Shown here piece by piece: positions 4,972 through 46,022 of a stretch of 64,000 nucleotides of DNA. The stretch is from an uncultured Flavobacteriales bacterium. Lineage in GTDB: Bacteria > Bacteroidota > Bacteroidia > Flavobacteriales_G > Salibacteraceae. Made by a program: the position numbers and the translations under genes. Location: NCBI GenBank assembly GCA_913062955.1, contig CAJXZP010000002.1, positions 1 to 64,000 on the forward strand, given 5' to 3'. A model generated the notes under the pieces. That model did not search any database, had not been told where the DNA came from, and was given only the letters and a program-made list of their open reading frames with translations. Each line of letters opens with the position of its first letter. Within the stretch, counting starts at the first letter, position 1.

Positions 4972-4988
4972 TCGTTAAATAAATTATT

Positions 4989-8743: not shown

Positions 8744-9280
8744 TTAGAAAGGACTATCATATTCATCCAAAGTAGGCCATTCAAGATCTCTTGGGTTGAG
8801 GATAGGATGGGCAGCATCCCAAACCTTCCCAAAACTATCATACTTTATTCCTTGATCATGAGTAGGTTCGTGCATCGTTGAAGTTAAATAGGTCATCATT
8901 GTTTCATCTTCCAAACTTTCAAAGCCATGAGCCAACCCTTTTGAAATAAAAAGAGCCCGATTATTGCTTCCTGTTAATTCAATACTAGCATATTTTCCGT
9001 AGGTCGGAGAATCACTACGGATGTCTAAAATAACGTCTATCAGACTTCCATGGGTACAATACACTAATTTATCATGGTCAAATGGAGGGGTTTGAAAATG
9101 CATTCCTCGGATAACACCCGCATTATTTTTGGAATAGAAACTTTCTTCAAAATGGGTGTTTAGGCCATGTTCTTCAAAACTTGCTTTATGAAAGGTTTTT
9201 ACAAATCCACCCCGATTATCTTCTGCATGGAATAGATCCAAAATGAACAATCCTTCAATAGTTGTTTTTCTAACTTTCAT
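8744..9280 (-). CDS. rfbC: dTDP-4-dehydrorhamnose 3,5-epimerase family protein
   Basis: FVKTFHKASFEEHGL, GVIRGMHFQTPP, DVILDIRSDSPTYGKYASIELTG and KGLAHGF motifs. Confidence 0.85.
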   Translation of the reverse strand: MKVRKTTIEGLFILDLFHAEDNRGGFVKTFHKASFEEHGLNTHFEESFYSKNNAGVIRGMHFQTPPFDHDKLVYCTHGSLIDVILDIRSDSPTYGKYASIELTGSNNRALFISKGLAHGFESLEDETMMTYLTSTMHEPTHDQGIKYDSFGKVWDAAHPILNPRDLEWPTLDEYDSPF

Positions 9281-9292
9281 ATAATGGGATGG

Positions 9293-10366
9293 TTACAGCT
9301 TTTGAAAATAGTTTTGTACTTGTTGAGTGGTTTTTGTTCCCCAATCCTCACTTGGCGTTTTATACCAATCTATGGTCCAGGATATGGTATCCTGGGCATT
9401 TAGTTTTGGTGCCCAGTTCAGGCTAGTTTTTGCCTTTGTGATATCTAACTTTAGTAATCCCGCTTCGTGCAATTGCCCCTCCTTTTGCTGAACCTCATAC
9501 GTTCCGCTACCCCAGGTTTCAATACTGATTTTTATCAGCTCCTCTACCGTCAATTCATTTTCTGGTTCCGGACCAAAATTATACGCATCCGCAAATTTTA
9601 CAGGGTCTTTTGCCATCTTAGCTCCAAGTAATAAATAGCCATACAATGGATCCAATACATGTTGCCATGGGCGAACGGCTCCTGGGTTTCTTAAAATAAG
9701 CTTTTCGTTCATACCTAAGGCCCTAGCCAAATCTGGAATAATTCGAGATTCATTCCAATCTCCTCCACCAATAACGTTTCCGCTGCGTACCGTACTCATG
9801 GATTTTTGATGCTCTGAATACTTTTTTGGATTGAAAAAAGACAAACGATAAGATTGACTTACTATTTCAGCCGCTGCTTTAGAAGCAGAGTAGGGGTCAT
9901 ATCCTCCTTTAGGATCATCTTCTACATAAGGTTCCATCCGTTCCTTGTTTTCGTACACTTTGTCCGTTGTAATGTTTACCATTATGCAGGGTTTAGCAAG
10001 CGCTTTAAAACCTTCCATAACATGAATGGTTCCCATTACGTTCGAGCTCATCGTACCTACTGGATCGGTATACGAAGGAATAACTAAAGCTTGGGCGGCC
10101 ATGTGAATAACGAAATCAGGTTGGAAATCAATTATGGCGTATTTCACCCGTTCTTGATTTCGGATATCACCAATTATGGATTCGCAAATATCATCTCCAT
10201 TAATCTGAAAGTAAAGATCCTTTGAGGTTTCCGGCTTTAATGAAAAACCCATCACTTCCGCTCCCAGTTCTTTTAACATGACTAAAAGCCAACTTCCTTT
10301 AAATCCAGTATGTCCAGTCAAAAAAACTTTCTTACCCGCATATGTTTCTTTAAGTAATTCTAACAT
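9293..10366 (-). CDS. rfbG: CDP-glucose 4,6-dehydratase
   Basis: GHTGFKGSWL NAD-binding motif, YSASKAAAE, VRSGNVIGGGDWNESRIIPDL; ATG overlaps the rfbF stop (TAATG). Confidence 0.9.
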   Translation of the reverse strand: MLELLKETYAGKKVFLTGHTGFKGSWLLVMLKELGAEVMGFSLKPETSKDLYFQINGDDICESIIGDIRNQERVKYAIIDFQPDFVIHMAAQALVIPSYTDPVGTMSSNVMGTIHVMEGFKALAKPCIMVNITTDKVYENKERMEPYVEDDPKGGYDPYSASKAAAEIVSQSYRLSFFNPKKYSEHQKSMSTVRSGNVIGGGDWNESRIIPDLARALGMNEKLILRNPGAVRPWQHVLDPLYGYLLLGAKMAKDPVKFADAYNFGPEPENELTVEELIKISIETWGSGTYEVQQKEGQLHEAGLLKLDITKAKTSLNWAPKLNAQDTISWTIDWYKTPSEDWGTKTTQQVQNYFQKL

Positions 10367-11139
10367 TACCAGTTTTTCCATTTCGGGGTACCTTCCCATA
10401 GATCGTTCAAATCATGATTGTCTCTAAGGGTATCCATACATTTCCAAAACCCGTTGTGCTTGAAAGAAACGAGTTCCCCTTCTTTAGCCAAATCTTCCAA
10501 CGGTTGACGTTCCCACATAATCGCATCCGCATCCTCATGTAAATAATTGAATACTTCTGGTTTCATGATAAAGAATCCGCCATTAATCCAAGCCCCATCT
10601 TCTTTAGGTTTCTCTACAAATTTTTGAACTACATTTTTATTATCTAATTCAATAACTCCAAAACGACTACCAGGTTGTACAATCGCCATGGTACAAATTT
10701 TACCGTGAGCTCTATGGAATTTTAATTCCTCGTCCATATTGATATCACATACTCCGTCACCATAGGTAAGCATAAACTCTTCGTCTCCAATATAGGGTTG
10801 AACTTGTTTAAGTCGTCCAGCAGTCATGGTTTCTAAACCCGTATCTACCAATGTAACGGTAAATGATTCTGATTTGTTTTTGTGTACTTTAATTTGGTTT
10901 GATTCCAAGTCTACAGTCACATCCGCATTATGAAAGTAGTAGTTTAAGAAATACTCCTTAATCATATATCCTTTGTAACCCAGACATACAATAAATTCTT
11001 TATGACCATATGACTCATACATTTTCATGATATGCCATAAAATGGGTTTCCCACCAATTTCAATCATTGGTTTTGGTCTTAAATGAGATTCTTCTGATAT
11101 TCTGGTGCCTTTACCACCTGCAAAAAGTACTACTTTCAT
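10366..11139 (-). CDS. rfbF: glucose-1-phosphate cytidylyltransferase
   Basis: MKVVLFAGGKGTRISEESHLRPKPMIEIGGKPILWHIMKMY; TYGDGVCDIN. Confidence 0.93.
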   Translation of the reverse strand: MKVVLFAGGKGTRISEESHLRPKPMIEIGGKPILWHIMKMYESYGHKEFIVCLGYKGYMIKEYFLNYYFHNADVTVDLESNQIKVHKNKSESFTVTLVDTGLETMTAGRLKQVQPYIGDEEFMLTYGDGVCDINMDEELKFHRAHGKICTMAIVQPGSRFGVIELDNKNVVQKFVEKPKEDGAWINGGFFIMKPEVFNYLHEDADAIMWERQPLEDLAKEGELVSFKHNGFWKCMDTLRDNHDLNDLWEGTPKWKNW

Positions 11140-11254: not shown

Positions 11255-12304
11255 CTAATTTTTGATGAATCTCATCCATTCTACACCGGTTTCAGATTCG
11301 GCTTTCACGAAGTAGATTCCTGGTGATAACTTGGAAACTTCAATTTGTGGAGCGTTTAATTCAATATTCGGTAGCACCATACTTCCCGAAGAATTCCAAA
11401 TGCTCAATGCTTTTACGGATTTGTTAACGTCAATATTTAAATAACGATCCGTAGGATTCGGATAAACAGTATTAATTAAGTTCTTTTCTACCACATTAAC
11501 GGATAATAGAGGATCATCTATGTATACCACAGATGTTATAATTCCCAATTGTTCCGTTACCGTTAATACGGGGAAACCTTCGTTGGATGCATACCATTCG
11601 TAAGTAACTTCAGTGGAGGGGATTCGTAATCCGAAAGAAGCCAAGTTAATGAATATGGTATCTGATTTTACCGTAGTTGTTTTTACTCTTAAAGTTTGAA
11701 AGGTTCCTCCTGGAGTAATCAGGATTCCCCAACCATCCACTTCGTAAGTTAACGTGCCTTCTTGGCCCAAAGTACCTAGTGCGGGTATGATCATTTCATA
11801 ATCGTACGTATCCGTGTTTTGATCGCCATAAGTAATGGGGAGGTATAGTTTTATTTTGGTATCGTTATACTTGGTAGGTAATGGAGCGCCCGATATGGTT
11901 GTACCAATTCCCACTTCTGACCAACTGGAGATTTCTGTTTTTGAAAATAAATAATTATTGGTCATGGTAATAAAACCGGCAAGATCAATATCATCGGTAA
12001 GTTTAGCCTCCGTTGCGAGGTAATTAGGATTAAGGGGGTTGTTAAATTGGAATTGGTAGAAAATGGGTGTTTGAGAAACGGTATTATAAATTAAAGTGTC
12101 ATTACTATTTCGTTGCAAATCACTGTAATCCCAAGTCATATTTGGTCCTGTTATCGAAACATCCATGGAACTACTAGTACCTGTTGATCGTGCATATTCT
12201 TGCCCTGGTTGAGGTATATCGTCCATATCGATTGTGATTTGAGAGAACCCCGAAATAGAGAAAAGAATCAATGTACTAAGTATAAGTTTTTTCATGATTT
12301 TCAT
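11255..12304 (-). CDS. T9SS type A sorting domain-containing secreted protein
   Basis: Signal peptide MKKLILSTLILFSISGFSQ; C-terminal VYPNPTDRYLNIDV...GIYFVKAESETG. Confidence 0.8.
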   Translation of the reverse strand: MKIMKKLILSTLILFSISGFSQITIDMDDIPQPGQEYARSTGTSSSMDVSITGPNMTWDYSDLQRNSNDTLIYNTVSQTPIFYQFQFNNPLNPNYLATEAKLTDDIDLAGFITMTNNYLFSKTEISSWSEVGIGTTISGAPLPTKYNDTKIKLYLPITYGDQNTDTYDYEMIIPALGTLGQEGTLTYEVDGWGILITPGGTFQTLRVKTTTVKSDTIFINLASFGLRIPSTEVTYEWYASNEGFPVLTVTEQLGIITSVVYIDDPLLSVNVVEKNLINTVYPNPTDRYLNIDVNKSVKALSIWNSSGSMVLPNIELNAPQIEVSKLSPGIYFVKAESETGVEWMRFIKN

Positions 12305-12332
12305 TTTCTCAAATGTAGGATTTGTAGGGCAT

Positions 12333-12367
12333 AAAAAAAACCGTTTTGATTAGGGCAAAACGGTTTT
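12333..12367 (-). terminator. rho-independent terminator
   Basis: AAAACCGTTTTG-CCCTAAT-CAAAACGGTTTTTTTT on minus strand. Confidence 0.8.
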
Positions 12368-12417
12368 AATATTAAGAGATGTAAAGGCTCCCCCCTTTAC
12401 ATCTGTTATCGCATATA
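12333..12417 (-). ncRNA. candidate small non-coding RNA with own promoter and terminator
   Basis: Minus strand: TTG(12451-12449)-N20-TATTTTTG(12428-12421) promoter; 11-bp stem AGATGTAAAGG/CCTTTACATCT with loop GGGGAG (12377-12404); 12-bp terminator stem plus 8 U (12333-12367). Confidence 0.5.
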
Positions 12418-12468
12418 GTGCAAAAATAAACGGAGCATTAATTTCGAGCAATACGTATTTTTACCTGT

Positions 12469-14409
12469 TTATAGTTCTTCAAGTTTTAAATTGGTAATTT
12501 CCCATTGGGCCATAACATCTTCCAGTTCTTTTGATTTATCAGAGTGAGTCGTGTAAAGATCTACCGGATTCGTATCTGTAACTGTAGCAATTTTGGACTC
12601 CAATTCTGCAATTTCACTTTCTAAGCTATCAATTTTCTTTTCGTGACGCTGAACCTCTTTATTTAGCTTTCTACGTAAATTATCCGTTTCCTTTTTTTGC
12701 TGATAAGATTCTTTGTTACTGGATCCCTTTATCTTGGTTTCCTTTTCTGCTTTTAAAGATTTCTTTTTTCCCGAGGTTTCAAACTCTCTAAAATTTTCCG
12801 ATTGATGTTTGTTTAGGAAATCGTTAATTGGACCCAAGTATTCTTGTACTTTTCCGTTAATAAACTCAAAAGTTTTATCGGTTAATCCATTTAAGAAATC
12901 TCTGTCGTGAGAAACCACCACTAAGGTACCATTGTATTCTAATAATGCCTTTTTCAACATTTCTTTAGAGGCAATATCCAAGTGATTGGTCGGTTCATCC
13001 ATAACCAATAGGTTGCGAGAAACCAATAACATTTTAGCCAGAGCTAAACGTGATTTTTCTCCCCCAGATAAAACCTTAACCTTTTTATCCATATCGTCCT
13101 CCTTAAAAAGGAAGGTGCCTAACAAACCACGCATCCTAGAAGGATTAGTCCATTCGTTAGTCGCAATATCCTCAATGGTTTGGAGAACTGTGATATTGGT
13201 GTTCAGAGTATTTTCTTGTACCTGAGCGTAATAATTCATTTCTACGTTATGACCTAAGGTGATAGTCCCTTCATAGCGCTCATCTTCGGTAAATAGTTTA
13301 AGGAATGTAGATTTTCCCATGCCATTTTGACCTACTAAGGCAACTTTTTCCCCTCTATTTATCTCTAAATTTACATCGGTGAATACGTGGTTAGTTCCAT
13401 AAGACTTAGCCACGTTTTCGGCTTTTAATACCACCTGCCCGGCTCGTTTAGCTTCGGGGAAGCTAAATTGAATACTGCTATTATCCACAATATCAATTTC
13501 AATACGGTCTACTTTATCTAGTTGTTTTTGTTTGGATTGTGCCGCCTTTGCTTTTGATGCCTTGGCTTTAAATCGTTCAATAAATCGTTCTTGTTGCTTA
13601 ATATAATCTTGTTGGTTTTTTAGAGTCCTTAATTGCTGTTCAATTCGTTCCTCTCGTAAAACCAAATAATTGGTATAGGCCACTTTGTAATCGAAGGTTT
13701 TACCCATCACAATTTCAATGGTTCTATTGGTTACATTATCTAAGAACATCTTATCGTGAGAAATCATCATGATCGCTCCTTGATAAGTCGATAAATATTC
13801 CTCTAACCAAATGATAGCTTCTATATCCAAGTGGTTGGTCGGCTCATCTAATAATAGAAGGGTGGGTTGAATTAATAATAGTTTTGCTAACTCCACACGC
13901 ATTTGCCATCCCATACTAAACTGCGTCATTTTCATTTGCAGTTTTTCTCTGGTAAATCCCAGTCCTAGCAATATTTTTTCGGCATTGCTCTCCGGATTCC
14001 CGTGGTCAATGATATCTAAACGTTCATGTTTGATGGTCAAATCATGAATCAAATCAGTATAGGCTTCGCTTTCGTAATCCGTACGGGTTTCTAATTGATG
14101 ATTGATATCTTCAATTTCTTTTTTAAGCGTATTGGCTTCCTCAAATGCACTTAAGGCTTCTTCCAAAACTGTTTTCTCCGATTGAAACGAGAGTTCCTGT
14201 GATAAATACCCCAAGCTTTCGTCTGAGGAAATGGTGACAGAACCAGAATCTAATTTCTGCCGTTTCATGATGACCTTCATTAAGGTAGATTTTCCGGCAC
14301 CGTTTTTTCCTACTAAACCAATGCGATCTCTTGAATTTATTAGGAAGGAGATGTCCTTAAATAAATCCATACCTGAAAATGAAACTGTTATTCCGTTAAT
14401 ACCTATCAC
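12469..14409 (-). CDS. ABC-F family ATP-binding cassette protein
   Basis: Two Walker A motifs (GKNGAGKST, GQNGMGKST), LDEPTNHLDI and MDEPTNHLDI, C-terminal coiled coil. Confidence 0.92.
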   Translation of the reverse strand: MIGINGITVSFSGMDLFKDISFLINSRDRIGLVGKNGAGKSTLMKVIMKRQKLDSGSVTISSDESLGYLSQELSFQSEKTVLEEALSAFEEANTLKKEIEDINHQLETRTDYESEAYTDLIHDLTIKHERLDIIDHGNPESNAEKILLGLGFTREKLQMKMTQFSMGWQMRVELAKLLLIQPTLLLLDEPTNHLDIEAIIWLEEYLSTYQGAIMMISHDKMFLDNVTNRTIEIVMGKTFDYKVAYTNYLVLREERIEQQLRTLKNQQDYIKQQERFIERFKAKASKAKAAQSKQKQLDKVDRIEIDIVDNSSIQFSFPEAKRAGQVVLKAENVAKSYGTNHVFTDVNLEINRGEKVALVGQNGMGKSTFLKLFTEDERYEGTITLGHNVEMNYYAQVQENTLNTNITVLQTIEDIATNEWTNPSRMRGLLGTFLFKEDDMDKKVKVLSGGEKSRLALAKMLLVSRNLLVMDEPTNHLDIASKEMLKKALLEYNGTLVVVSHDRDFLNGLTDKTFEFINGKVQEYLGPINDFLNKHQSENFREFETSGKKKSLKAEKETKIKGSSNKESYQQKKETDNLRRKLNKEVQRHEKKIDSLESEIAELESKIATVTDTNPVDLYTTHSDKSKELEDVMAQWEITNLKLEEL

Positions 14410-45756: not shown

Positions 45757-45775
45757 ACTTTAGGGCATAAAAAAA

Positions 45776-45875
45776 CGGGTTAGCTAATTACATCGCACCG
45801 CTCAACCCTCGACCCTTGCTTCATTCCTGACCTGGGGGATTAGAAGGGAGCTGGTCGTGTAAGACTAACCCGCAC
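45776..45875 (-). ncRNA. ffs: signal recognition particle small (4.5S) RNA
   Basis: Minus strand contains CCCAGGTCAGGAATGAAGCAAGGG (SRP helix 8 with GGAA loop), terminal stem GCGGGTTAG/CTAACCCG, U-run, and TACATTTG promoter motif 45878-45885. Confidence 0.9.
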
Positions 45876-46022
45876 TGCAAATGTAAGTCGACTTTTTTGA
45901 TATTTCAGTACTAAAAAGTAAAGAATTTTGTTTTTTTTTTACACCGCTTATTTTCTGAAATTTGTAGTAATAATTGATAACATAATACCACATAAACCCA
46001 ATTCATTCTATATTTGCTAGTA

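Follow-up and report, generated by a model that had tools for sequence, protein, structure and literature searches.

The intergenic interval between an ABC-F ATPase gene and a gene for a secreted protein with a type IX secretion sorting domain (Por_Secre_tail; here called the T9SS-cargo gene) very probably contains a real small RNA gene, one that is under selection and specific to its genus. The reading that we favor, with somewhat more confidence than doubt, is that this is an independent noncoding RNA gene whose product likely acts by base pairing in trans, and that the same sequence also serves as the 3' UTR of the ABC-F mRNA. RNA polymerase carrying the Bacteroidota housekeeping sigma factor would initiate just past the ABC-F stop codon, as the conserved signals suggest, and transcription would end at an intrinsic terminator roughly 85 nt further on. 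The RNA is predicted to fold into two hairpins, the first exposing a G-rich loop and the second being the terminator, and the pairing kept between species supports this fold. The unit was analyzed within a stretch of 64,000 nt of an uncultured Bacteroidota bacterium (the window) and by comparison of three genomes that represent three species of the genus (G000, G001 and G002). The coordinates of the features are collected in Table 1.

Table 1. Features of the small RNA locus and its flanking genes in the window
Feature	Position	Strand	Description
ABC-F ATPase gene	12469..14409	-	upstream neighbor; adjoins the unit in 3/3 genus genomes
Small RNA unit		-	intergenic; ABC-F gene upstream, T9SS-cargo gene downstream
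Small RNA promoter, Bacteroidota -33/-7 type	12421..12451	-	TTG 12451-12449, N20, TATTTTTG 12428-12421
Predicted small RNA, about 80-86 nt	12333..12415	-	from fold and conservation; 5' end placed by inference a few nt past the -7 box
Hairpin 1, 11 perfect pairs, G-rich loop	12404-12377	-	AGATGTAAAGG-GGGGAG-CCTTTACATCT
Terminator hairpin, loop CCCTAAT, U-tract	12333..12367	-	AAAACCGTTTTG-CCCTAAT-CAAAACGGTTTT 12367-12337, then TTTT 12336-12333
T9SS-cargo gene promoter	12310..12340	-	TAnnTTTG box TACATTTG 12317-12310, between terminator and gene start
T9SS-cargo gene	11255..12304	-	downstream neighbor; secreted protein with Por_Secre_tail domain

A preliminary description of this DNA had proposed a promoter on the minus strand, and both of its boxes can be read directly as it gave them; the -33 box lies 17 nt from the ABC-F stop codon (12471-12469). 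Taken by itself the promoter string occurs in the window at chance frequency (one found, 1.85 expected); its retention in three species is what gives it weight. The TTG and TAnnTTTG boxes and the distance between them are invariant in G000, G001 and G002, while the 20-nt spacer that they enclose has diverged to 5-7 identical positions of 20. Judged by sequence, then, a promoter of the phylum type (-33 TTTG-like, -7 TAnnTTTG) would precede the unit in all three species.

The divergence of the surrounding DNA sets the scale for such comparisons. Fourfold degenerate codon sites of the ABC-F gene are 35-37% identical between the species, which is close to saturation; for the T9SS-cargo protein the identity is 49-67%. 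The leader of the predicted RNA shows 28-44% identity and the linker between its hairpins (9 nt in the window) retains 0-3 of 7-9 positions, so that promoter spacer, leader and linker all look unconstrained against this saturated background. The two hairpins have fared differently. Hairpin 1 is identical at 27 of 28 positions in G001 and at 22 of 29 in G002, with all 11 pairs retained, and the terminator is identical at 34 of 34 positions in G002 and at 34 of 36 in G001, where the loop has two additional letters. The order of ABC-F gene, unit and T9SS-cargo gene is the same in each of the three species, and the unit is present as a single copy; conservation in relatives with the same ABC-F neighborhood, which the preliminary description had set as a check, was thus found in all three.

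The conservation of the terminator exceeds what termination would seem to demand. Two control terminators, one after the gene that ends near 4974 (compared in three species) and one between msrA and a DNase gene (two species), have kept their fold while their sequences diverged, and ordinary intergenic sequence nearby decays likewise. With two controls and no statistic attached, this comparison is suggestive of a sequence function of the RNA beyond termination. Because terminators in this lineage usually diverge, one that is kept letter for letter may serve as a marker of an RNA gene. The terminator had been described as a 12-bp stem followed by eight U residues. The 12-bp stem is there, but four of the eight T residues (the run spans 12340-12333) pair with AAAA within it, and the structure is therefore read either as 12 bp with four U or as 8 bp with eight U.

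The predicted RNA folds more stably than expected from its composition, with a free energy of -27.9 kcal/mol and a z score of -5.2 that none of 200 shuffled sequences equaled. Its length is similar in the three species; the unit quoted earlier as 85 nt actually counts 87 nt. The perfect 11-bp stem capped by GGGGAG is present as proposed. Over both hairpins all 23 pairs are kept in the three species, one of them by a two-sided change and three by one-sided changes. In hairpin 1 of G002 the replacements are A-U to U-G, G-C to G-U, U-A to U-G and A-U to G-U, every one of them a standard pair. Since these changes yield G-U pairs, the G002 hairpin folds on this strand alone (-8.2 kcal/mol, z -2.3, against -1.8 and z -0.1 on the opposite strand). 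The preliminary description had looked to covariation in this stem among relatives. Covariation as such does not reach significance with only three sequences, as 164 of 500 shuffles attain the observed values. A small peptide was also considered as the product; no open frame is common to the three species, and a 7-codon ATG frame occurs in G002 alone. The unit therefore combines an intrinsic terminator with a lack of shared coding capacity.

A covariance model built on the three sequences was run against 42 genomes from the order and 395 from the class. It scored 87-94 bits within the genus and at most 40 bits outside it, where the matches inspected were ordinary terminators that lacked a preceding promoter and a G-rich hairpin. 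ABC-F orthologs are found in 36 of the 42 order genomes, and at the loci inspected outside the genus the unit was absent downstream of them. Neither hairpin matched the viral contigs searched. A search of Rfam 15, including Flavo-1, had been recommended and returned no family at the gathering cut-off; permissive thresholds (E up to 10) gave chance matches only. By these sequence comparisons the small RNA is a lineage-specific gene restricted to its genus, and lineage specificity is common among bacterial sRNAs.

The position of the unit raises the question of how far it belongs to its neighbors. In none of the three species is the ABC-F stop codon separated from the unit by a terminator. ABC-F transcripts should therefore run on to the terminator of the unit, so that the unit probably supplies the 3' end of this mRNA as well. 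One could go further and suppose that it is nothing but the ABC-F 3' UTR and terminator, with hairpin 1 stabilizing the mRNA end or mediating feedback in cis and the promoter boxes starting no RNA. 3' transcribed regions are indeed frequent in Bacteroidota (PMC7366714, PMC9723704), which would fit. However, TTG and TAnnTTTG have stayed the same distance apart in three species although the intervening 20 nt were scrambled, and a promoter conserved in this way speaks for the start of a separate RNA as well. The ABC-F orthologs inspected elsewhere in the order lack a 3' element of this kind; we consider the 3' UTR by itself an unlikely explanation. The short distance to the T9SS-cargo gene, on the same strand and with synteny in three species, could instead point to a cis-acting leader or attenuator of that gene, with a terminator that is conditionally read through. 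We consider this improbable. In all three species the T9SS-cargo gene has a -7 box of its own that follows the terminator and precedes the gene start (TACATTTG, TACCTTTG and TATTTTTG), which makes the unit an unlikely leader of that gene, in agreement with the preliminary description. Each of these boxes lies 23 nt from the first T of the T run. With this constant spacing the upstream box would be expected at the U-tract of the small RNA, so that the terminator and the next promoter overlap. Furthermore, hairpin 1 and the terminator fold simultaneously rather than as alternatives, which leaves no attenuator logic. Attenuators and riboswitches have mutually exclusive terminator and antiterminator structures ahead of a gene that shares their promoter, and by its two coexisting hairpins and the separate box of the next gene the unit does not classify as one; no riboswitch or leader in Rfam matched.

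If an independent small RNA is made, the next issue is what its loops do. Most likely it would pair in trans, with C-rich segments of mRNAs bound by the G-rich loop and perhaps also by the frozen loop of the terminator. The loop of hairpin 1 is G-rich throughout the genus (GGGGAG, GGGGAG and AGGGGAAG, each with GGA inside), and by its anatomy it would most likely be the natural seed for mRNA pairing; that the RNA acts in trans through this loop is a tentative proposal, to which we give a little less than even weight. The motif CTNCCCC shortly before ATG was counted 499, 256 and 271 times, against 457, 200 and 236 in reversed controls, a slight excess of an unspecific motif. Pairing of the loop with an assumed 16S tail sequence was predicted at -12.2 kcal/mol; a search for the 16S 3' end in these genomes did not find it. 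The three genomes gave no match to Hfq (PF17209) or CsrA (PF02599), both of which were matched in control genomes, and no RRM-1 protein was detected in them by a search whose positive controls worked. These results disfavor both chaperone-dependent pairing of a known type and a CsrA sponge. With no Hfq in the three genomes the RNA does not classify as an Hfq-dependent sRNA, and with no CsrA it does not classify as a CsrB/RsmX-type sponge. The idea that it holds a protein on its G-rich loop, much as CsrB and RsmX hold CsrA, and pairs with no mRNA would account for the GGA kept in three species and for the failure to find an RNA-pairing chaperone of known kind. Known sponges of this type carry several such loops, however, and this RNA has one; together with the missing CsrA family protein, this makes a sponge improbable. 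In each species the G-rich loop could also pair over 4 bp with the loop of the terminator (CCCU; CCCC in G001), with energies of -5.9 to -8.1 kcal/mol, which may be chance. Pairing of the two loops within one molecule was judged unlikely, because the linker, 7-9 nt long, would need to bridge two stacked stems. An sRNA that works without Hfq, CsrA or RRM and in which both loops are functional, through a dimer or a loop-loop switch in competition with C-rich targets, is conceivable but has little probability in our view.

Several described RNAs of the phylum resemble this one in part. The intergenic sRNAs of Bacteroides thetaiotaomicron, GibS among them (PMC7366714), are likewise short, independently transcribed (as this RNA would be) and conserved in one genus. 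GibS is set apart by its description as having relatively little structure and a single-stranded seed at its 5' end (PMC7366714), whereas the present RNA consists mostly of two strong hairpins, and its genus differs from the B. thetaiotaomicron system in having no detectable RRM-1 (RbpB-type) protein. In a different genus, Flavobacterium psychrophilum has independent RNAs such as Rfp18 (PMC9723704); by their description these are genus-conserved, structured and independently transcribed, and are predicted to pair with mRNA through a stem-loop, as proposed here. Another class comprises sRNAs whose start site lies within a gene's 3' region and whose terminator is that of the gene (PMC7366714). 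The present RNA is like them in having a promoter right past a coding gene and, if ABC-F transcripts read through as we infer, a common terminator; the B. thetaiotaomicron classification (PMC7366714) would place it among the sRNAs with a 3'-region start site and a shared terminator. 6S-Flavo and Flavo-1 (Rfam) are also small, structured and found in this phylum, but neither matched, at the gathering score or at E up to 10. Overall, the gene looks like a genus-specific member of a well-known general kind, the small regulatory RNAs. To our knowledge, few sRNAs are known in Bacteroidota beyond Bacteroides and Flavobacterium. Being short and single-copy, and having well-defined ends and a terminator that is unusually well preserved, the unit offers a clean test case for Bacteroidota sRNAs that function without Hfq.

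Some further features of the neighborhood were recorded. Comparison with the G001 and G002 relatives indicates that the T9SS-cargo gene probably starts at its second ATG (12295) rather than at 12304. Downstream of this gene lies a sugar-nucleotide cluster (8744-11139), with a glucose-1-phosphate cytidylyltransferase (TIGR02623) as its first member, followed by CDP-glucose dehydratase-like and dTDP-sugar epimerase-like frames, both assigned by eye. A small SRP RNA is located at 45773-45878 (Rfam Bacteroidales_small_SRP, 95.9 bits). In G001 alone, the stretch from the ABC-F stop codon to the small RNA promoter contains an additional small hairpin, AGGGGTTATCCCCT (L004:1436-1449). The same genome has a second ABC-F match (G001:C1:1263084-1264748), 46% identical to the protein of the window and interrupted by three in-frame TAA codons, which to judge from its sequence would be either a decaying paralog or a composite match.
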